A stretch of DNA of 51,182 nt from Alphaproteobacteria bacterium (GTDB lineage: Bacteria > Pseudomonadota > Alphaproteobacteria > UBA828), in the NCBI GenBank assembly GCA_022826665.1, contig JAJDUK010000021.1, positions 1 through 51,182 on the forward strand, written 5' to 3'. Each line of letters opens with the position of its first letter. Position 1 is the stretch's first letter. The notes beneath the pieces were generated by a model. That model had not been told where the DNA came from. It ran no database searches and saw only the letters and a program-made list of their open reading frames with translations. Below are positions 20,439-49,433 of this stretch, piece after piece. The position numbers and the translations under genes are program-made.

Positions 20439-20624
20439 ATGGACGAGGAGCCAATTCGCATCCCGCGCGAACAGGAATGGACTCCGCGCGTGCTCGATGA
20501 CATGTCGGTGGACGCACTCAACCACTATGCCGGCCAGCTTGAAGAAGAGCTGGAGCGGGTGCGCGGCGCCATCCGGGCGAAGTCGGACTACCTGAGCGAG
20601 GCGGACTCGCTCTTCAAGAGCTAG
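20439..20624 (+). CDS. DUF1192-family small protein
   Basis: This 61-residue protein matches the alphaproteobacterial DUF1192 pattern: an acidic start (MDEEPIRIP), then VDALNHYAGQLEEELERVRGAI, a short amphipathic helix likely to form a coiled coil, and a C-terminal SEADSLFKS. AGGAG lies 6 bases before the chosen ATG. The function is unknown. It sits divergent to the quinone oxidoreductase, near trcR, and its last 11 bases overlap the end of soxG on the opposite strand. Confidence 0.85.
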   Translation: MDEEPIRIPREQEWTPRVLDDMSVDALNHYAGQLEEELERVRGAIRAKSDYLSEADSLFKS

Positions 20625-21333
20625 CTTCGCCCCCGCCCAGCAGAGCACGGATGGCCGCAAGGCCGACCGGGGCGCCGTCGTACTCGGCCATCGCGTCGAG
20701 CAGTGCACCCCAGAGATAGACCGCAGAGGCGAGGTCGGTGATCAAGTCGTAGGCCGGCACCGGGCCGAGGTCGCCCCGGATCACGATCACGTTGAGGCGG
20801 GCGACGTTGGTCTGGGCGATGGCATCGGGCGTGAATACTTGAGGCCTCAAGTCGACGGCGCAGACCTTGGCAAGCATCGAGGGCGCGTGTGCACCGGTGA
20901 GCAGCAGCCAGCAGCTGGTCTCGTCCCGCCTGACGCGGAAGCAGCCGTCGGCCTCCGCCATGCTCCACGCCCCATCGAGGGTCTCGATCAGGGGGCCGGC
21001 CCCGCCGCGGTCTGCGAGCACCAGTGCCTCACCCGGAGCCAGCCGCGCGATGCGGGTGCCATCGGCCTGGCGGTAGGCCCCGTTGCTCGCCTCGCCCATC
21101 TCGGCACCGTTGCCGGCGAGCCAGGGCGCGATATTCCAACCCTTGAAGCCGATGCGCGGGAACGGCGTGAGGTCGGCAAGTCCGAGCGATCCCGCTTGTG
21201 CCGCATCGGCGGCAGCCTCCCGCCCAAAGTCGCTGGCCACCGAATAGCCGCCCAACGCCTCGAAGCGCGCGCCGTGCGCCTCCAGCGCGCGGTAGAGCGG
21301 CGAACGTCGCCGTTCCTCTGCGGGAATTGCCAC
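20614..21333 (-). CDS. soxG: Sarcosine oxidase, gamma subunit
   Basis: The smallest catalytic-neighbour subunit of heterotetrameric sarcosine oxidase. The 239-residue protein shows the family-typical GWNIAPWL-like and WLLLTGAHAPSMLAKVCAVDL segments, the latter resembling the folate-binding fold of GcvT. The start is GTG, 2 bases after the soxA stop, with GGAG upstream, so translation is coupled. Order soxB-soxD-soxA-soxG is the classical one. The 3' end overlaps the convergent DUF1192 gene by 11 bases. Confidence 0.88.
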   Translation of the reverse strand: MAIPAEERRRSPLYRALEAHGARFEALGGYSVASDFGREAAADAAQAGSLGLADLTPFPRIGFKGWNIAPWLAGNGAEMGEASNGAYRQADGTRIARLAPGEALVLADRGGAGPLIETLDGAWSMAEADGCFRVRRDETSCWLLLTGAHAPSMLAKVCAVDLRPQVFTPDAIAQTNVARLNVIVIRGDLGPVPAYDLITDLASAVYLWGALLDAMAEYDGAPVGLAAIRALLGGGEASS

Positions 21334-21335
21334 CG

Positions 21336-24245
21336 TCAGAGCTCCTGCCGCGCGCCGTCGGGGTCGAAGAACGGGATCTTCGCCACGGTCGCATTCACCA
21401 TGCGCGCGCCGTCCACCCGGATCTCGATCTTGGTGCCGGGCTCGCTCTGGTCGGGCGCGACATAGGCGAGGCCGACGATCTTGTCCAGGTTCGGCGAGTA
21501 GGCCACCGACGTGACCCGCCCGGTGATCTCGCCTCCGCGGATCACCAGGTGGCATTCTTTCGGCTGTTCCACGCCGACGCCGGGCATCTCGAACCCCACC
21601 AGCTTGCGGGTGAGCCCCTTCGCAGCCTGCATCCGCACCGAGCGGATGCCGACATGGAAGGGCTTCTTCTTGGCGAGCGCCCAGGCCATGTCCGCCTCGT
21701 GGGGGGTGGTGAGGCCGTCGGTATCCTGGCCGATGAGGATGTGGCCCTTCTCCAGCCTGAGCAGGCGCTGCGCCTCGACGCCGAAGGGCCGGATGCCGTG
21801 GTTCTTGCCGGCTTCCATGAGCGCGTCCCAGAGGGCCTCGCCCTGGCTCGCCGGCACGTGCAGCTCGTAGCCGAGCTCGCCTACGAAGCCGACCCTGAGA
21901 AAGATCGTGGGGATGCCGGCGACATGGCCCTCGCGCACGCCCATGTAGGGGAAGCCCTCGGGCGAGAGGTCGACATCGTCACAAAGGGTCTCCAGCACCG
22001 GGCGGCAGTTGGGGCCCGCGATGTTGACGCCCGCGAGCGCGGCGGTGACGTTGGTGACGTCGACCTTGAGCCGCCACTGGGCGTTGTACCAGAGCATCTC
22101 GCGGTAGACGTTATCGACGCCCGAGGTCGTCGCCGTGACGTAGAAATGGTCCTCGTGCATGCGGCAGGCGACGCCGTCGTCCACCACCACGCCGCCGAGG
22201 TCGGTCATCAGCACGTAGCGCGAGCGGCCCACCGGCTGTTTGAGGTAGGCGAAGGTGTACATGCGGTTCATGAATTCGGCCGCATCGGGCCCCCGAACGT
22301 CGAGCCCGCCGAGGGTGGAGACATCGATGATGCCCACGTTGTCGCGGACGTTCTTGGCCTCCTCCCCGATCAGCGCCTGGCGCCGCGCCTTGTCGCCATA
22401 GAACTCGGGCCGGAGCCAGAGACCCGCCGGCATCATGGTGGCGCCGGCCTCCAGATGGCGGAAGTGCATCGCCGTATACCGCACCGGCTCGAAGCTGCGG
22501 CCCGCCAGATGGCCCATGGTGACCGGCACGATGGGCTGGCGCACCGTGGTGACGCCGGTCTCGTCGACGCTCCGCGACTTGGCGCGCGCCAGAATGCGCA
22601 CCGCGTTCAGCGACGAATGGCGGCCCTGCGAGGGCCCCATGCCGTTGGTGGTGAAGCGCTTAAGCAACTCGACGTGGTCGTAGCCCTCGGCGATCGCGTC
22701 TTCCAGATCGTGGACCTGCACGTCCTCGTCGAGATCGACGAAAGCCTTGTGGTCGGGATGCGCGAAGATCGGCCACGCCGCCTGCGCCGCTGCCGGCTCC
22801 TCCTCCGCAGGGGCAGCGGGCTCAGGCCCCACGTCGAGCCCGGCAGCCTGCGCCGCCTGCCAGCCGGTGCGACGGCCGTCCGCCATCGCGGCATCAAGGC
22901 CGGAGGTCCCGGCCACGTCGCCTGCGGCGAAAACGTCCGACGGGAGCTCCGCGACGGTGGTCGCGTGGCGATCACTGTCGTAAGTGAAGATAGCGCCCGC
23001 CTGGCGCAGCAGCGCGGCCGCCGGCGCATGGCCGCCGCTCACGACCAGGAGGTCACAGCTGAAGCTGTCCACGGAGGGCGCGCAGACGCCGTCCTCCTCG
23101 ATCCGGGCGACGCGGACTCGCGCGACGCCTGCTCCCTTGCGCTGCGCCACGGCCTCCCACGGCGCCGAGGCGGCGTGGACAGGCACCCGGCGCGCGGCGA
23201 GCGTGTCGCCCATCGCGGTGCGCGGCGCATCCATGCGGAGATCGACCACCGCCGCCACCTCCACGCCTGCGTCCAGCAGGTCGAGCGCCGCGCCGTAGCC
23301 CTCGTCGTCCGCCGTCGCGACCACGGCGCGGCGGCCGGGCTTCACGCCATAGAGCTTGATCAGGCGCTGCGCCGCACTGCTCAGCATGACGCCCGGCAGG
23401 TCGTTGTTGCGGAAGACCAGCGGCTGCTCTAGCGAGCCAGTGGCGACCACCAGCGCCTTGGTCCTGAGCTTGTAGAGCCGGTTGCCGCGCACCAGTGGCA
23501 GCCAGTTGTCGGCGTAGCGGCCGAGGCACGCGGTCTCGGTCATCACCGAGATGCGATCCGAACCCTCGACATCGCCGACAAGCCGGGCGCGCTCCTCTTC
23601 GGCACGAATGCCGCCGGCGTCCGCGCGGCCATAGAGCAGCCCGCCGCCGAGGGCCGCGTTCTCGTCCACCAGGATGACCTCGGCACCGGCGGCTGCCGCT
23701 TGCGATGCCGCCGCGAGCCCCGCCGCGCCGCCGCCCACCACCAGCACGTCGCAGAAGAGGTACTGCTTGTCGAAATAGCCGTGCGGGGCGTTGGTATCGA
23801 CGGTGCCGAGGCCCGCGATCCGGCGGATCATCTTGGCCCAGAGCGGCCAGGTCCAGCGCGGCTTGTAGAACGCCTTGTAGTAGAAGCCCACGGGGAAGAA
23901 ACGGTGCAGCAGGCCGAACACCGCTAGGCGGTCATGCCGCAGCGTCCCCCAGTAGTTTTGACCCGTGACCTCCAGGTCGGGAACCAGCGGCTCGCGGTCC
24001 GCGAAGCGGTTGGGTGCGGGGCCGACCTGGACCAGCGTGTTCGCATCGAGGCCGGAGAGCGAATGGATGCCGCGCGGGCGGTGATACTTGAAGGAGCGCG
24101 ATAGCACCGAGACGTCGTTCGCCGCCAGCGCGCTCGCCACCGTATCGCCGCGATAGCCCTGAAACTGCCTGCCTTCGAAGCGGAACGAGACCTGTTCCGT
24201 GCGATCGAGAAGCAGCCCTGCGGGCTCCGGCAGCCGCGTCATCAT
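21336..24245 (-). CDS. soxA: Sarcosine oxidase, alpha subunit
   Basis: The alpha subunit (969 residues) binds NAD+ and tetrahydrofolate; the enzyme converts sarcosine to glycine, trapping the methyl carbon as 5,10-methylene-THF and producing H2O2. The N-terminal 2Fe-2S-like ferredoxin fold region contains YRGDTVASALAANDV and FKYHRPRG. The dinucleotide-binding motif VVGGGAAGLAAA lies near 168-180. Residues from about 590 form a GcvT-like folate-binding domain with GELGYELHVPASQ. The ATG overlaps the soxD stop as ATGA. Length agrees with family members of about 965-1005 residues. Confidence 0.96.
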   Translation of the reverse strand: MMTRLPEPAGLLLDRTEQVSFRFEGRQFQGYRGDTVASALAANDVSVLSRSFKYHRPRGIHSLSGLDANTLVQVGPAPNRFADREPLVPDLEVTGQNYWGTLRHDRLAVFGLLHRFFPVGFYYKAFYKPRWTWPLWAKMIRRIAGLGTVDTNAPHGYFDKQYLFCDVLVVGGGAAGLAAASQAAAAGAEVILVDENAALGGGLLYGRADAGGIRAEEERARLVGDVEGSDRISVMTETACLGRYADNWLPLVRGNRLYKLRTKALVVATGSLEQPLVFRNNDLPGVMLSSAAQRLIKLYGVKPGRRAVVATADDEGYGAALDLLDAGVEVAAVVDLRMDAPRTAMGDTLAARRVPVHAASAPWEAVAQRKGAGVARVRVARIEEDGVCAPSVDSFSCDLLVVSGGHAPAAALLRQAGAIFTYDSDRHATTVAELPSDVFAAGDVAGTSGLDAAMADGRRTGWQAAQAAGLDVGPEPAAPAEEEPAAAQAAWPIFAHPDHKAFVDLDEDVQVHDLEDAIAEGYDHVELLKRFTTNGMGPSQGRHSSLNAVRILARAKSRSVDETGVTTVRQPIVPVTMGHLAGRSFEPVRYTAMHFRHLEAGATMMPAGLWLRPEFYGDKARRQALIGEEAKNVRDNVGIIDVSTLGGLDVRGPDAAEFMNRMYTFAYLKQPVGRSRYVLMTDLGGVVVDDGVACRMHEDHFYVTATTSGVDNVYREMLWYNAQWRLKVDVTNVTAALAGVNIAGPNCRPVLETLCDDVDLSPEGFPYMGVREGHVAGIPTIFLRVGFVGELGYELHVPASQGEALWDALMEAGKNHGIRPFGVEAQRLLRLEKGHILIGQDTDGLTTPHEADMAWALAKKKPFHVGIRSVRMQAAKGLTRKLVGFEMPGVGVEQPKECHLVIRGGEITGRVTSVAYSPNLDKIVGLAYVAPDQSEPGTKIEIRVDGARMVNATVAKIPFFDPDGARQEL

Positions 24246-24850
24246 GTCGCCGGATCCTTCGGCTCGCGAGGGGATGCGTCGTCGGCAGGTGCCTCGTCCG
24301 CTGGAACGTCGTCAGCGGGTACCTGGTCGGCGGCTGTATCGCCTTCGGCGTCGGCCGGCGCGGCTTGTTCTGGAGCTTCCGGCGTTTCCGCAGCGGTCTC
24401 GGCAGGTTCGGATTGCGGCTCCGGCTCGGGCGCGGCGGGCTCCTCCTCTGTGGCCTCGGTGGGTGCGGCCTCAAGCGAAGGTGGCGGCGCTTCCGGCGGT
24501 GTAGGTGGCGGCGGCGGTGCGGCCTCCTTCCGCGGCTCGGGTGCGGCTGCGGGCTCTGGAGGCGGTGGCAGAGGCTCGAATTCGACGCGCTCGGAGAACA
24601 CTCGGTCGGCTGGATAGGTGGCGAGGATCTCGTCGGTCACCGTGTTGCGCTCGGCGATAAACCAGTAGGCGGTCGCGACGTGACACCACCACTCGCGCAC
24701 CACGCCGTCCAGGTTCTCCTCCATCCAGACGAACTCGGTCCACTCGTCGTCCGAGCACCGGTTGGGATCGGGATGCGGCTCCACGGTGCCGGCGCAGATG
24801 AACTCCTGGATATTGCGCGGCCCGTTGAGTGGGCAGGGCATGATTTTCAT
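24242..24850 (-). CDS. soxD: Sarcosine oxidase, delta subunit with long low-complexity tail
   Basis: SoxD is the zinc-binding small subunit, normally about 85-100 residues. Here residues 1-92 resemble it: CPLNGPRNIQEF, then EWWCH near 53-57 and WFIAERNT. However, the CP-x-CG motif lacks its second cysteine (Asn9), and the Cys expected a few residues after His57 is Ala, so only Cys6 and His57 of the usual ligands remain. C19, C32 and C56 could supply alternatives. Residues 93-202 are a Pro/Ala/Glu-rich tail unlike a normal SoxD. The ATG at 24850 is used; upstream frame is a shadow of soxB. It ends in the ATGA overlap with soxA. Confidence 0.85.
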   Translation of the reverse strand: MKIMPCPLNGPRNIQEFICAGTVEPHPDPNRCSDDEWTEFVWMEENLDGVVREWWCHVATAYWFIAERNTVTDEILATYPADRVFSERVEFEPLPPPPEPAAAPEPRKEAAPPPPPTPPEAPPPSLEAAPTEATEEEPAAPEPEPQSEPAETAAETPEAPEQAAPADAEGDTAADQVPADDVPADEAPADDASPREPKDPAT

Positions 24851-26190: not shown

Positions 26191-27150
26191 TTATTGGTCC
26201 GACCGCTTGGCCTCGAAACGGGCGGCCTGCTCGCGCAAGCCCCGCGCGGTACCGGCGTTGATCAGAACGAGGCTCGCCAGCAGCACCGCGACCGCAGCCC
26301 AGACCCAGTGGCTGAGCGCCGCGCCGAAGAAGATGCTGGCCCAGAAGATGCCGGCCGCGACCACCACGTAGTTGAGCTGCGCGAAGAAGAGCGCGCCGGC
26401 GCGACGCACGATCTCGAAGAAGCAGCTGTAGGTAATCGCCTGGCCTGCCGTGGCCCAGAGCAGGCCCCAGAGCCCGGAAGAGTCGGCGTCGGTCGGCAGA
26501 AAGAGCTCGCCTTGCGCGAGCATCACGATCAGCAGCAGCAGCGCGGCCACCATCATCATGCCGCCGCAGAGCGCGAACGCGCTCACGCCCACCGGCGAGA
26601 AGCGCGCGCCTGCGACATTGTTCACCGCCGCAGACATTGGCATCAGCAGCGAGAACAGCACCCACACCCAGGCGCCTGACTCCGGCAGGCTGCCTGTGGG
26701 CACGACGATGAGCAGGATCCCGCCGAAACCGAGCAGCACGCCGGCGACGCTGAGCCAGCGGAAACGGTCGAACCTCAGCACGAGGGTCAGCGAGTAGGTG
26801 GTCGCCGGGATCAGCGCCGCGCAGAGCGTCAGCACCGCCGGCGGCAGGCGATCGGCGACGTAGGTAACGACCAGCAGCGGCCCCAGAAAGCCGAAGACCG
26901 CCACCAGCCCGAAGACCCGCAGGTTCTCCTTTCTGAGCGACGGCAGCTTGGAGACGAGCGCGGCTAGCACCAGCGTCACCACGCCCGCGAACAGCGCCTG
27001 CCAGAACGAATAGGCGATGAAGGGGAAGCCCGCGTCGATCGCGATCTTGTTGGCGGTGAACAGGCTGCCGTAGGAGATGCCGCCGAGCAGCAGCAGCACG
27101 GTCGGCAGCATGAGCCGGTTCTCGCGGAACTCGTCGAGCAGCCGCCTCAT
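26191..27150 (-). CDS. DMT-superfamily (EamA) transporter
   Basis: This 319-residue protein has ten or so hydrophobic segments arranged as two EamA repeats, beginning LPTVLLLLGGISYGSLFTANK. The family exports or imports small metabolites such as amino acids. It is 73 bases upstream of soxB on the same strand and may belong to the sox transcription unit, which would suggest a link to sarcosine or glycine movement; that is inference. The C-terminus is short and basic. Confidence 0.88.
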   Translation of the reverse strand: MRRLLDEFRENRLMLPTVLLLLGGISYGSLFTANKIAIDAGFPFIAYSFWQALFAGVVTLVLAALVSKLPSLRKENLRVFGLVAVFGFLGPLLVVTYVADRLPPAVLTLCAALIPATTYSLTLVLRFDRFRWLSVAGVLLGFGGILLIVVPTGSLPESGAWVWVLFSLLMPMSAAVNNVAGARFSPVGVSAFALCGGMMMVAALLLLIVMLAQGELFLPTDADSSGLWGLLWATAGQAITYSCFFEIVRRAGALFFAQLNYVVVAAGIFWASIFFGAALSHWVWAAVAVLLASLVLINAGTARGLREQAARFEAKRSDQ

Positions 27151-45385: not shown

Positions 45386-45625
45386 ATGAGCGGCAAGTGG
45401 CTCCCGTTTGAGCTCGCCTGGTACGACACGCGAATTTTCAACTGTTCCTTCTGCGGCATCATGATGGCGCGGGAATACTGGGTGGACGACGAGTTCCCCG
45501 GCGAGATGTTCTGCGAGGACAAGTGCGCCGACGTGAAGCGGCGGGTCCGGGCGGAGTTTGCCGAGGCGAAGGCGGCCGGCCGCGTCGAGGAAGCGCGCCA
45601 CGGTGAGGAGGCAAGCGATGTATAG
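45386..45625 (+). CDS. 79-aa four-cysteine (zinc-ribbon-like) protein beside HyuA-HyuB
   Basis: The protein has C20, C23, C43 and C47, in the same C-x2-C-x19-C-x3-C spacing as the 57-residue protein at 268-441. It shares WY, NCS-x-CG, M-x-AR, WV and FC-x2-KCA. After the ribbon it carries a charged helix (ADVKRRVRAEFAEAKAAGRVEEA), absent from the other copy. The stop overlaps the ATG of the fused hydantoinase gene by 8 bases (ATGTATAG), so translation is coupled. GGGAG precedes the ATG. Probable metal-binding subunit or chaperone of the enzyme; role inferred from location and duplication only. Not a family I can name. Confidence 0.85.
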   Translation: MSGKWLPFELAWYDTRIFNCSFCGIMMAREYWVDDEFPGEMFCEDKCADVKRRVRAEFAEAKAAGRVEEARHGEEASDV

Positions 45626-48600
45626 GGTCGGCATCGACACCGGCGGCACGTTCACGGACTTGGTCGCGCTGGACGACGCGAGCGGGAGCATTCGCACCGT
45701 CAAGGTCCCATCCACGCCGCAGCAGCCTGCCGCCGCGCCGCTCAACGCCATCGGCCAAAGCAAGCTCACACCGGACGAGATCGGCCGCATTGTGCTCGGC
45801 ACCACCATCGCCACCAATGCGCGTCTGCAGAAGAAGGGCGCGACCGTGCTCTACGTTGGCACCGACGGCGTGCAGGACGTGCCCATCATCGGCCTGATCG
45901 CGCGCAAGGAGGCCTACAACCCGGCGTGGGAGAAGCCCAGTGCCGGCGTGCTGCGCCGCCATGTCTTCGGCATCAAGGAGCGCGTCGATCACAAGGGCAA
46001 CATCCTGGTCCCGCTGGAAATGCCCGAGCTGGAGCGGCTCGGCGACTGGATCGACGAATGGCGCGCGAGTGACCCCACGCAGGAGTGGGCGGTCGCGGTC
46101 AACCTGCTTTTCTCCTACGTGGATACCAGTCACGAGGAAGCCATCGGCGCCTACCTCGCCGAGCGCTTCCCTGATCTGCCGGTCTCGCTCTCGAGCGACG
46201 TCTGCCCGATCTGGCGCGAGTATCAGCGGAGCGCCACGGTCATCACCGACGCCTTCATCAAGCGCATCATCGACCGCTTCGTGGGTCAGGTCTCGACCGA
46301 CCTGGAGACGGCGGGGATCGAGGCGCCGCTCTCGCTCATGAAGTCGAACGGCGGCCATCTGCAGGCGGAATCCGCCGGCGACGCGCCGGTTCAGCTGCTG
46401 CTCTCGGGCCTCGCCGGCGGGGTCATCGCCGGCGCCCGCTTCGCCCGCGACCATGCGGACGGCAACGGCGTCACCCTCGACATGGGCGGCACGAGTTGCG
46501 ACGTCGGCCTTGTCACCGACGGCGCCTTCGGCTCCACCACCGAATACGAGGTGGAATGGGGCGTGCCGGTGAGCGCGCTCTTCATCGACTACACCACCAT
46601 CGGCGCGGGCGGCGGCTCCATCGCCTATGTCGATGTCGGCGGCCTGCTCCGCGTGGGACCTCGCAGCGCAGGTGCCGACCCCGGCCCGGCCAGCTACGGC
46701 AAGGGCGGGACCGAGCCCACGGTCACCGACGCGAACGTGGTGCTCGGCCGTCTCGACCCCGACTACTTCCTGGGCGGCGAGATGACGCTGGACGCCGCCA
46801 AGGCGCAGGAGGCGGTGGCCGGGCTCGGCCAGCAACTCGGTCTCACGGCGGTGGAGACCGCGCGCGCGATCCTGGAGACGGCGGCCGAGAACATGGCGGA
46901 CGCGATCCGCCTGATGACGGTCGAACGTGGCATCGATCACCGCGACTATGCCCTGATCGCCTTCGGCGGCGCCGGCCCGCTCCACGCGGTCGATGTCGCG
47001 GCCCCGCTGGAGATGAAGAAGGTCGTGGTGCCGCCCCATCCGGGGCTCTGCTCGGCGCTCGGCACGCTGCTCACCGACCTCCGTGTCGACCGCGCGCGCA
47101 CGGTCAACCACCGCTCCGACACGGTGGATCTGCCTGTCCTCAACGGTCAGCTCCAGGCGCTCGCCCGCGAGGCGGTCGAGGAACTCAAGCGCGATGGGCT
47201 GGAGGGCGAGGCGCGGGTCACTGGCTACATCAGCATGCGCTACATGGGGCAGAACTTCGGCGAGCTGGTGCAGCTCGACACGCTGGAACTCGACGAGGAC
47301 GGCTTCGCCCGGGCGCTCGAAGGGCTCCACCGCCAGCACGAGGAGCTCTACGGCTACGCGCTCCGCGACAAGGTGGCCGAGATGACCGAGGTGCGGGTGA
47401 TCGCCGTCGGCGAGGAGCGCACCGATGCGACGCTGAGCGCGCCCGCCACGGGTTCGGGTCAGGCCCACGCCCACCGCGAGGTCTACTTCGACGGCGACCA
47501 GCCGCTGGAGACACCGATCTACCGCCGCGCGGAACTCCCCGCAGGCTCCGTGGTCGCAGGCCCCGCGATCATCGACGAGATGGACTCCACCACGCTCGTG
47601 CCGCCGCAGAGCGAGGTCGAGATCGGCGCCGACGGCAGCCTGATCGTGAGCCTGCCCAGGGCGGCGAGCGCTGCGGTCGGCACCGGACGGCTCGCGCCGG
47701 AGAAAGACCCGGTCACGCTCACCGTGGTCAACAACGCGCTCGGCAACATCTGCAACGAGATGGAAAGCGCCATGGTGCGCACCGCGTATTCGCCGATCTT
47801 CAGCGAATCGCGGGACTTCTCGTGCTGCCTGTTCGACCGCCACCTGCGCATGGTGGGCCAGGCCGAGATGAACCCGGCGATCATCTGCGCCGGGCTGCAC
47901 ACGGTGCCGCTCTGCGTGAAGGAGATGGAGGAGCCGATTGAGCAGGGCGACGTGATCGTCCACAACGATCCCTACCGCGGCCAGTGCCACATGCCGGAGC
48001 ACCTGCTAATGAAGCCGGTCTTCGTCGACGGCACGCTGATCGGCTACGCCGCCAACATCGCCCACATCGCCGAGATCGGCGGCATGGCGGTGGGCTCCTT
48101 CGCCAGTACGGCGACCGAGGTGTTTCAGGAGGGGCTGAGGCTGCCCCCGGTGAAGCTGCTTTCGCGCGGCGAGTACGTGAAGGACGTCTGGCGCATCGCG
48201 CTCGCCAACCACCGCACCCCCAACACCACCTGGGGCGACTTCCACGCGATGATCGGCTCGCTCAACACCGCCGAGCAGCGGCTGGGGGCCATGGTGAAGC
48301 GGCTCGGCGTCGAGACCTTCGAGAAGATCTGCGACGCGCTCGTGGATCACGCCGAGCACTGGATGCGGAACGAGATCCGCAAGCTTCCCAACGGCATCTA
48401 CAAGGCCGAGGACTACTTCGAGGACGACGGGGTTAGCACCAATCGCTTCTACTTTCGCCCGACCGTGCACATCCGGGAGGAGGAGATCGTGGTCGACCTC
48501 TCGGAATCGGACGAGCAGGCGCGGGGGCCGATCAACGTCACCTACGTGGCGACCGCCGCCGCCGGCTGCACCGCAGTGCTGCAGACCCTCTGCGCCCGCG

Positions 48601-49433
48601 ACGTGCCGCTCAACAGCGGCTGCTTCAAGCCTCTCCGCGTGGTGGCGCCGCCTGGCACGGTGGCGAACCCGGTGTTTCCCGCGCCGAGCGTCGCCGGCAA
48701 CACCGAGGGCCAGCCCCGCATCATCGCGGCGGTACAGCACGCGCTCTCTAAGGCCGTGCCGGATATGGTGAGCGCCGCAGAGGGCGGCACCGCTTGCAAT
48801 CTGCTGCTCGGCGGCATCCACCCCGATACCGGCGAGTACTGGACCCACTACCAGCTGGAAGGCGGCGGCTGGGGCGGCCGGCTCGGCAAGGACGGCAATA
48901 CCGCGCTCTGCTGCGCGCACGCGAGCACCATCCGGGCGACGCCGATCGAGGTGTTCGAGACCCGCTTCCCGCTCCGTGTGATGAAGTACGAGATCCGCCC
49001 CGATTCAGGGGGCGCAGGCAAGTGGCGGGGCGGGCTCGGCTGCTGGCGCCAGTTCGAGGTGATTGCGGATGCGATCAGCGTAAGCGCGCTCACCGACCGC
49101 ATCACCGAGGGACCCTATGGGCTGATGAAGGGAGAGGCTGGCGCACCCACGGGCTTCTTCGTCAAACGGGTCGAGGACGAAGAGTTCCGCACCTTCAAGG
49201 AGGTCTATGGCACCGTAAGCCCGACCAAGTTCGTCAACATCCGGCTGCACCGGGGCGACCAGATCCTGGTCCGCGTGCCGGGGGGCGGCGGATACGGCGA
49301 CCCGCGCGAGCGGGCGGAGGACGCGCTCCGCGCCGACCTGGAGGACGGCTTCGTCAGCGTGGAAGGGCTCTCGGCTTACGGCCGCGACGCGAGCTTCGCG
49401 GACGCGGTGAAGGAAGCTGCGGCGGCGGAATAG
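45618..49433 (+). CDS. Fused hydantoinase A/B (oxoprolinase/carboxylase-like) protein, second copy
   Basis: This 1271-residue protein has the same architecture as the copy at 451-4371: VGIDTGGTFTDL at 4-15, a TLDMGGTSCDVG motif near 285, then a HyuB half from about 698 with ICNEMESAMVRTAYSPIF and VHNDPYRGQCHMPEH. The start is the ATG at 45618, 20 codons inside the longest frame, because it overlaps the four-cysteine gene and begins at the family N-terminus. Sequence drift from the other copy is substantial, pointing to an old duplication or separate acquisitions. It is followed, convergently, by a betaine-type ABC transporter. Substrate unknown; ring-opening of hydantoin-like compounds or carboxylation are both possible. 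Confidence 0.94.
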   Translation: MYRVGIDTGGTFTDLVALDDASGSIRTVKVPSTPQQPAAAPLNAIGQSKLTPDEIGRIVLGTTIATNARLQKKGATVLYVGTDGVQDVPIIGLIARKEAYNPAWEKPSAGVLRRHVFGIKERVDHKGNILVPLEMPELERLGDWIDEWRASDPTQEWAVAVNLLFSYVDTSHEEAIGAYLAERFPDLPVSLSSDVCPIWREYQRSATVITDAFIKRIIDRFVGQVSTDLETAGIEAPLSLMKSNGGHLQAESAGDAPVQLLLSGLAGGVIAGARFARDHADGNGVTLDMGGTSCDVGLVTDGAFGSTTEYEVEWGVPVSALFIDYTTIGAGGGSIAYVDVGGLLRVGPRSAGADPGPASYGKGGTEPTVTDANVVLGRLDPDYFLGGEMTLDAAKAQEAVAGLGQQLGLTAVETARAILETAAENMADAIRLMTVERGIDHRDYALIAFGGAGPLHAVDVAAPLEMKKVVVPPHPGLCSALGTLLTDLRVDRARTVNHRSDTVDLPVLNGQLQALAREAVEELKRDGLEGEARVTGYISMRYMGQNFGELVQLDTLELDEDGFARALEGLHRQHEELYGYALRDKVAEMTEVRVIAVGEERTDATLSAPATGSGQAHAHREVYFDGDQPLETPIYRRAELPAGSVVAGPAIIDEMDSTTLVPPQSEVEIGADGSLIVSLPRAASAAVGTGRLAPEKDPVTLTVVNNALGNICNEMESAMVRTAYSPIFSESRDFSCCLFDRHLRMVGQAEMNPAIICAGLHTVPLCVKEMEEPIEQGDVIVHNDPYRGQCHMPEHLLMKPVFVDGTLIGYAANIAHIAEIGGMAVGSFASTATEVFQEGLRLPPVKLLSRGEYVKDVWRIALANHRTPNTTWGDFHAMIGSLNTAEQRLGAMVKRLGVETFEKICDALVDHAEHWMRNEIRKLPNGIYKAEDYFEDDGVSTNRFYFRPTVHIREEEIVVDLSESDEQARGPINVTYVATAAAGCTAVLQTLCARDVPLNSGCFKPLRVVAPPGTVANPVFPAPSVAGNTEGQPRIIAAVQHALSKAVPDMVSAAEGGTACNLLLGGIHPDTGEYWTHYQLEGGGWGGRLGKDGNTALCCAHASTIRATPIEVFETRFPLRVMKYEIRPDSGGAGKWRGGLGCWRQFEVIADAISVSALTDRITEGPYGLMKGEAGAPTGFFVKRVEDEEFRTFKEVYGTVSPTKFVNIRLHRGDQILVRVPGGGGYGDPRERAEDALRADLEDGFVSVEGLSAYGRDASFADAVKEAAAAE

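Follow-up and report, generated by a model that had tools for sequence, protein, structure and literature searches.

Candidate N-methylglutamate dehydrogenase operon

We analysed the 51,182-nucleotide contig JAJDUK010000021.1 of an Alphaproteobacteria bacterium (UBA828; assembly GCA_022826665.1), hereafter the window, which carries on its minus strand an operon in the order EamA-soxB-soxD-soxA-soxG. From sequence comparison, we put at about 0.7 the probability that this operon encodes an N-methylglutamate (NMG) dehydrogenase (mgdABCD), belonging to a SoxBDAG lineage in which the delta subunit, SoxD, has lost its zinc site. An earlier note on soxD, a minus-strand gene for which it gave correct coordinates, had raised the possibility of a divergent SoxBDAG subfamily acting on another N-methyl compound. 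Indeed, SoxB and SoxA fall in a separate clade, and that compound is likely NMG, as indicated by the gene linkage of orthologues and by the gmaS and mgsABC genes of the same genome. The assignment follows from orthology and from exclusion, the second soxBDAG of the genome being canonical.

Four sox-type subunits, recognised by their Pfam domains, lie in a single operon, with the soxD stop and the soxA start overlapping as ATGA. Residues 4–80 of SoxD match PF04267 (E=1.5e-25; 89.6 bits against a cut-off of 27), and its best PDB matches in Foldseek are 1vrq_D (E=3.0e-6) and 2gag_D (E=6.8e-6); for 1vrq_D the E-value is clear and the geometry loose (template modelling score 0.64 by target, root-mean-square deviation 6.2). 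The window complex has in common with the heterotetrameric sarcosine oxidase SoxBDAG of these two structures the subunit plan and the SoxD fold, but differs in lacking the zinc Cys pair in SoxD, in having its own SoxB/SoxA clade and in scoring under the NCBIfam sox cut-offs, with 65.6 against 116.5 bits for SoxD (TIGR01374), 487.3 against 529.45 for SoxB and 874.7 against 1164 for SoxA, SoxG being given in Table 1. A divergent subfamily was first hinted at because all four subunits fell under these cut-offs.

Loci are named here CPxNG or CPxCG (canonical) after the first SoxD knuckle. In the SoxB and SoxA trees the window complex is placed among loci linked to gmaS or mgs genes (SoxB group support 0.999), and in both it stands apart from the CPxCG complexes of its relatives, with which a sarcosine oxidase would be expected to group. 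Orthologues in other genera of the family are 76–81% (SoxB) and 61–67% (SoxA) identical to those of the window, and at 10 of 12 such loci gmaS and/or mgs genes adjoin soxBDAG; the remaining two come from short contigs (6.1 and 3.1 kb). As a control, none of the 20 CPxCG loci of relatives had gmaS or mgs genes in flanks of up to 6 kb per side. Among all CPxCG loci the linkage was found at 2 of 37, namely L161 of an Acidithiobacillus caldus plasmid, which lies inside the CPxNG clade, and L240 of Shinella, which belongs to another lineage.

The genome of the window itself encodes GmaS (70% identical) and MgsABC, with mgsABC sets on contigs C75 and C33, and it holds only two SoxD, the second being of the canonical CPWCG type. 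A trimethylamine N-oxide demethylase was found above its cut-off, and no match to PF11927, which presumably covers DmmA, was found in the genome. Across the genus gmaS and mgsC are each present in 6 of 8 genomes; in the six that carry the SoxD tail described below, gmaS is present in five and mgsC in six. Of the two mgsABC sets (G000:C33 and G000:C75; L130 and L129), one is accompanied by a GlnA-like gene (29% to GmaS).

The known pathway suggests that the SoxB flavin subunit would oxidise the N-methyl group of NMG. The GCV_T part of SoxA would then load the C1 unit onto tetrahydrofolate, so that the products are methylene-tetrahydrofolate and glutamate. SoxD would be a structural subunit of zinc-ribbon type, in which the knuckles Cys6/Asn9 and His57/Thr60 probably hold together metal-free. 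Its tail would be a disordered acidic extension gained in the genus, the end of which carries a Shine-Dalgarno-like run for soxA.

NMG pathway genes are described in the available text of PMC5023235 and PMC13390433. The MgdABCD of Methyloversatilis universalis FAM5 and of Ruegeria pomeroyi (SPO1585-1588) come from soxBDAG-type operons of four genes, and the genomes also hold gmaS and mgsABC; both features recur here. The likeness is one of operon plan and gene linkage, with sister-genus orthologues of the window complex directly adjoining gmaS/mgsABC; unlike MgdABCD, the window SoxD has an additional tail. The zinc-ligand-bearing Shinella complex may, at a guess, be closer to the tested MgdABCD.

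Several observations weigh against the NMG assignment. Within the genus soxBDAG lies next to gmaS/mgs at none of six loci, the gmaS and mgs genes of the window genome are found elsewhere in a draft assembly, on contigs other than this one, with contamination estimated at 4%, and tail-bearing G005 gave no gmaS match at E≤1e-100. Only 30 of 98 CPxNG loci are gmaS/mgs-linked within the stretches examined; others lie beside purU/folD/IclR (Pseudomonas, Acinetobacter) or beside ectoine-type transporter and creatinase-like genes (Ruegeria, Shimia, Mesorhizobium), and given these several settings the complexes of the lineage probably do not all share one substrate. In 10 Ruegeria genomes no soxBDAG was found up to 20 kb either side of gmaS. 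The Shinella complex, from a different SoxBDAG lineage and with its zinc ligands intact, is also gmaS/mgs-linked, which means that an NMG dehydrogenase need not belong to the CPxNG lineage. Finally, Cys6, Asn9 and His57 of SoxD could bind metal weakly or together with a residue of a partner subunit.

Because the clade has these other gene settings, zinc state and substrate are separate questions. CPLNG was considered as a mark of NMG specificity and rejected, since L161 and L240 are linked with their ligands intact and 68 of 98 CPxNG loci are unlinked within the stretches examined. The same two loci speak against the idea, implied in the earlier note, that the tail or the zinc loss marks the substrate.

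Among CPxNG loci with other neighbours, L159, L022 and L034 carry CPLNG soxBDAG with genes for an amino-acid or ectoine-type ABC (ATP-binding cassette) transporter, an M24 peptidase/creatinase-like protein and a beta-eliminating lyase, and these complexes probably act on another substrate. CPLNG-type soxBDAG also occur on Acinetobacter plasmids (20 records, including L160, which has purU and folD).

Loss of the zinc-site cysteines

When aligned to 2gag_D and 1vrq_D, the window SoxD keeps Cys6 and His57, has Asn9 in place of Cys9, and has lost the fourth ligand Cys. We take the ligand set to be Cys6/Cys9/His59/Cys63 (Cys-x-x-Cys plus His-x(2,3)-Cys), and judged against this list the window protein does not carry the SoxD zinc site. 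The HMMER alignment puts the lost fourth Cys opposite a gap preceding Ala61, and with the A. caldus SoxD as guide (HLPCNEWF, both Cys) Thr60 occupies the lost position. The two replaced ligands had been read as Asn and Ala; Asn9 is correct and the second Cys is absent, Ala being an approximation for a position that Thr60 fits.

The two cysteines come and go together. We compared 136 SoxD rows, in which window relatives, canonical loci and plasmid loci were added to the 80 pattern-derived loci described below. Left out were loci of whole-genome origin that duplicate genome_contigs loci, canonical loci that were short and also present in a longer form, and rows lacking a SoxB match. For L038 a script misread the second motif, which we then checked by eye. 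In these rows 98 have Asn9 and no second Cys, 37 have both Cys, and one has neither Cys nor Asn, so that the Cys at position 9 and that of HxxC/HxxxC are both kept in 37, both lost in 99 and found singly in none. Such joint presence or loss is what a common metal site predicts. When CPxNG sequences were aligned, 38 of 38 had C6, N9 and H57. All 80 loci kept from the 119 relatives found by peptide-pattern search carry Asn at position 9, with patterns that favour Asn9 (among them MKIMPCPL); because of this bias to the CPL motif, the 98:37 ratio of CPxNG to CPxCG is no measure of abundance.

The loss of the Cys pair is, on these alignments, old and common to a large clade, and the window SoxD probably keeps the zinc-ribbon fold without zinc. 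On the A. caldus plasmid (L161:7001-7258) SoxD has both Cys, at 9 and 60 (CPICG, HLPC), beside glnT and mgsABC; its SoxB and SoxA lie inside the CPxNG clade, sister to Paraburkholderia phymatum L237 (CPVNG), with support 1.0 in both trees, and the site was therefore kept or regained there as a unit. In another lineage, the Ruegeria SoxD of L235:6027-6260 (HPLLG...HEQGD) has independently lost three of the four usual ligands. A profile search for SoxD structures returned only 2gag_D and 1vrq_D, and no solved homologue with the CPxNG motif. As far as the available text of PMC5906684 goes, the SoxD of 1VRQ is termed a zinc ribbon. The zinc-ribbon relatives treated there together with Cren7/Sul7 have a function unrelated to that of SoxD, and the text mentions relatives that differ in how many Cys they carry.

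The acidic tail

The usual length of about 90–100 residues that had been given for delta subunits fits well with the 88–128 aa of 36 rows of CPxCG type, in which two proteins appear twice, and the 81–130 aa of 89 CPxNG rows outside the genus. The long Pro/Ala/Glu tail of the 202-aa window protein is real: it runs for 112 residues beyond residue 90, with 29% P, 24% A, 18% E and 8% D and a net charge of -25. A CPLNG SoxD was found in 6 of 8 genomes of the genus, always with a tail, which past residue 90 measures 112 residues in the window, 110 in G001, 80 in G004, 96 in G005, 51 in G006 and 109 in G007. G003 gave no SoxD match and G002 a canonical SoxD only (genomes 62% and 67% complete, respectively). 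The canonical SoxD of the genus are tail-free (98–101 aa), and outside the genus none of the 89 CPxNG rows has a tail or exceeds 130 aa. The tail is thus specific to the genus and, being present in six genomes, is not confined to this assembly. The earlier note had asked whether close homologues have both motif and tail: the motif is found in a large clade, the tail only within the genus. That the tail and the zinc loss belong together is hence not borne out; they are independent in origin, and neither defines the substrate.

The reading frame of the tail is preserved across many insertions and deletions in the six genomes. Pairwise ratios of nonsynonymous to synonymous substitution rates (dN/dS) are 0.05–0.34 in the core and 0.16–0.57 in the tail, the latter values being alignment-dependent, and uncertain, in a low-complexity stretch with dS close to saturation. 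Frame and dN/dS argue that the tail is neither chance nor artefact. It is predicted to be disordered, the AlphaFold model of SoxD having no helix or strand beyond residue 84 and block means of the confidence score pLDDT (predicted local distance difference test) of 51–76 beyond residue 100. Since orthologues beside gmaS or mgsABC are tail-free, the tail would not be needed for the chemistry and is probably dispensable.

Conservation is limited to the first residues of the tail and to its end, with few hydrophobic residues. The last soxD codons carry, by eye, a purine-rich Shine-Dalgarno-like run in 6 of 6 genomes (AAGGA in four, GGAGG/AGGGA in two), and the amino acids there differ between the six; part of the conservation at the tail end is due to this run for soxA being encoded there.

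To look for tails rich in P/A/E/D of at least 40 residues, we ran a gene caller of our own on 451 kb of the window genome (G000) and on stretches of G006 (100 kb), G019 (160 kb) and G015 (120 kb); the tail lengths it gives run over into folded parts. Such tails were found in 6 of 358 called genes in G000, and in 0 of 74, 0 of 131 and 0 of 92 in G006, G019 and G015, respectively. The other five in G000 are the TrcR gene of the window, a gene for a 648-aa protein with a DnaK-like N-terminus (by eye) and three more. The tail is therefore unusual in its genome yet not alone. A general tendency of the genome to P/A/E tails was rejected as a full account, only 6 of 358 genes having one.

Alternative explanations

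An ordinary sarcosine oxidase with a degenerated delta subunit would share the four-subunit plan and domains, and would account for the Cys6 and His57 that SoxD retains and for the RHDAVA stretch retained in SoxB. We consider it the least probable of the alternatives, as the genome encodes another soxBDAG, of the CPWCG type, CPxNG complexes make up a clade apart in both trees, the dN/dS of the SoxD core is not that of decay, and orthologues are gmaS/mgs-linked. The complex might instead act on an N-methyl compound other than these two, with a change of substrate when the genus parted the operon from gmaS/mgs. The genus operon is indeed unlinked, has an EamA transporter gene, and belongs to a group whose other members have other neighbours; this is nevertheless improbable, the genome having no second CPxNG-type complex to serve its own gmaS and mgsABC, and SoxB being 76–81% identical to the linked orthologues.

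With NMG dehydrogenase as the preferred reading, other accounts concern the two peculiarities of SoxD. Zinc could still be bound through Cys6, His57 and other residues, in line with the invariance of these two and with the additional Cys19, Cys32 and Cys56 of the window protein. The additional Cys are, however, not conserved in the alignment, and both ligand Cys vanish together in 99 of 99 rows that lack at least one of them, making retained zinc unlikely. The tail as a disordered tether, proposed in the earlier note, agrees with the AlphaFold prediction as to disorder and is conjectural as to a partner or tethering role. If the tail served as a functional tether, whether to the membrane or to a second enzyme of the NMG pathway, this would fit its retention in 6 of 6 genomes, where composition and frame are kept, and the rarity of comparable tails among the genes sampled from the genome. 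One can also conceive of a physical link, since in the genus the gene lies apart from gmaS/mgs. The length variation from 51 to 112 residues, the scarcity of hydrophobic residues, the lack of a conserved motif except at the first residues and the Shine-Dalgarno-overlapping end, and the tail-free orthologues leave it a doubtful proposal. Somewhat less unlikely, though still speculative, is a joint reading in which CPxNG is a large, multi-substrate, metal-free branch, found with NMG and in two or more other gene settings, the zinc site switches as a unit (on in A. caldus, lost again independently in a second lineage, Ruegeria L235), and the disordered acidic arm of the genus organises a scattered pathway.

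Significance

No zinc loss or tail in SoxD/MgdB was found in the titles and abstract openings that searches of open-licence literature listed. In the records examined (7 annotated plasmid regions of 98 matching records), CPxNG complexes on plasmids carry no annotation beyond sarcosine oxidase or FAD (flavin adenine dinucleotide)-dependent oxidoreductase. The two-position motif, Asn9 and no Cys after His57, would help to mark these loci as a separate clade, 30 of 98 having NMG genes, and the paired gain or loss of Cys offers a clean natural experiment on the purpose of zinc in SoxD. The job of the enzyme would be ordinary and its part unusual, the tail being a genus-level curiosity.

Operon features and neighbouring genes

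Table 1. Position of the operon genes and of the SoxD elements in the window.
Feature	Position	Strand	Description and basis
EamA-type transporter gene	26191..27150	minus	upstream of soxB, strand shared; Pfam
soxB/mgdA-like, 413 aa	24877..26118	minus	FAD oxidoreductase; Pfam DAO
soxD/mgdB-like, 202 aa	24242..24850	minus	zinc-ribbon-fold delta subunit, CPLNG and acidic Pro/Ala/Glu tail; translation, domains, alignment
Cys6-Gly10 codons (CPLNG)	24821..24835	minus	first knuckle, Asn9 replacing Cys; translation, alignment
SoxD tail, residues 91-202 and stop	24242..24580	minus	restricted to genus; without predicted secondary structure
Shine-Dalgarno-like AAGGA within final soxD codons, 9 nt 5' of soxA ATG	24255..24259	minus	
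soxA/mgdC-like, 969 aa	21336..24245	minus	Fer2_4, Pyr_redox_2, SO_alpha_A3, GCV_T, GCV_T_C
soxG/mgdD-like, 239 aa, divergent	20614..21333	minus	Pfam GCV_T; TIGR01375 34.1 bits, cut-off 143.95

The EamA gene also adjoins soxB in G004, G005, G006 and G007, while the G001 contig stops inside soxB. Elsewhere in the window, TrcR (PF06242; 18461-19252) has a C-terminal end likewise rich in Ala/Pro/Glu/Asp. The gene caller used left 39618-42514 gene-free, and GC content is reduced nearby (0.589 across 40-45 kb). A fused 5-oxoprolinase/hydantoinase A+B gene, glutamate-related and encoding 1271 aa, lies at 45618-49433.

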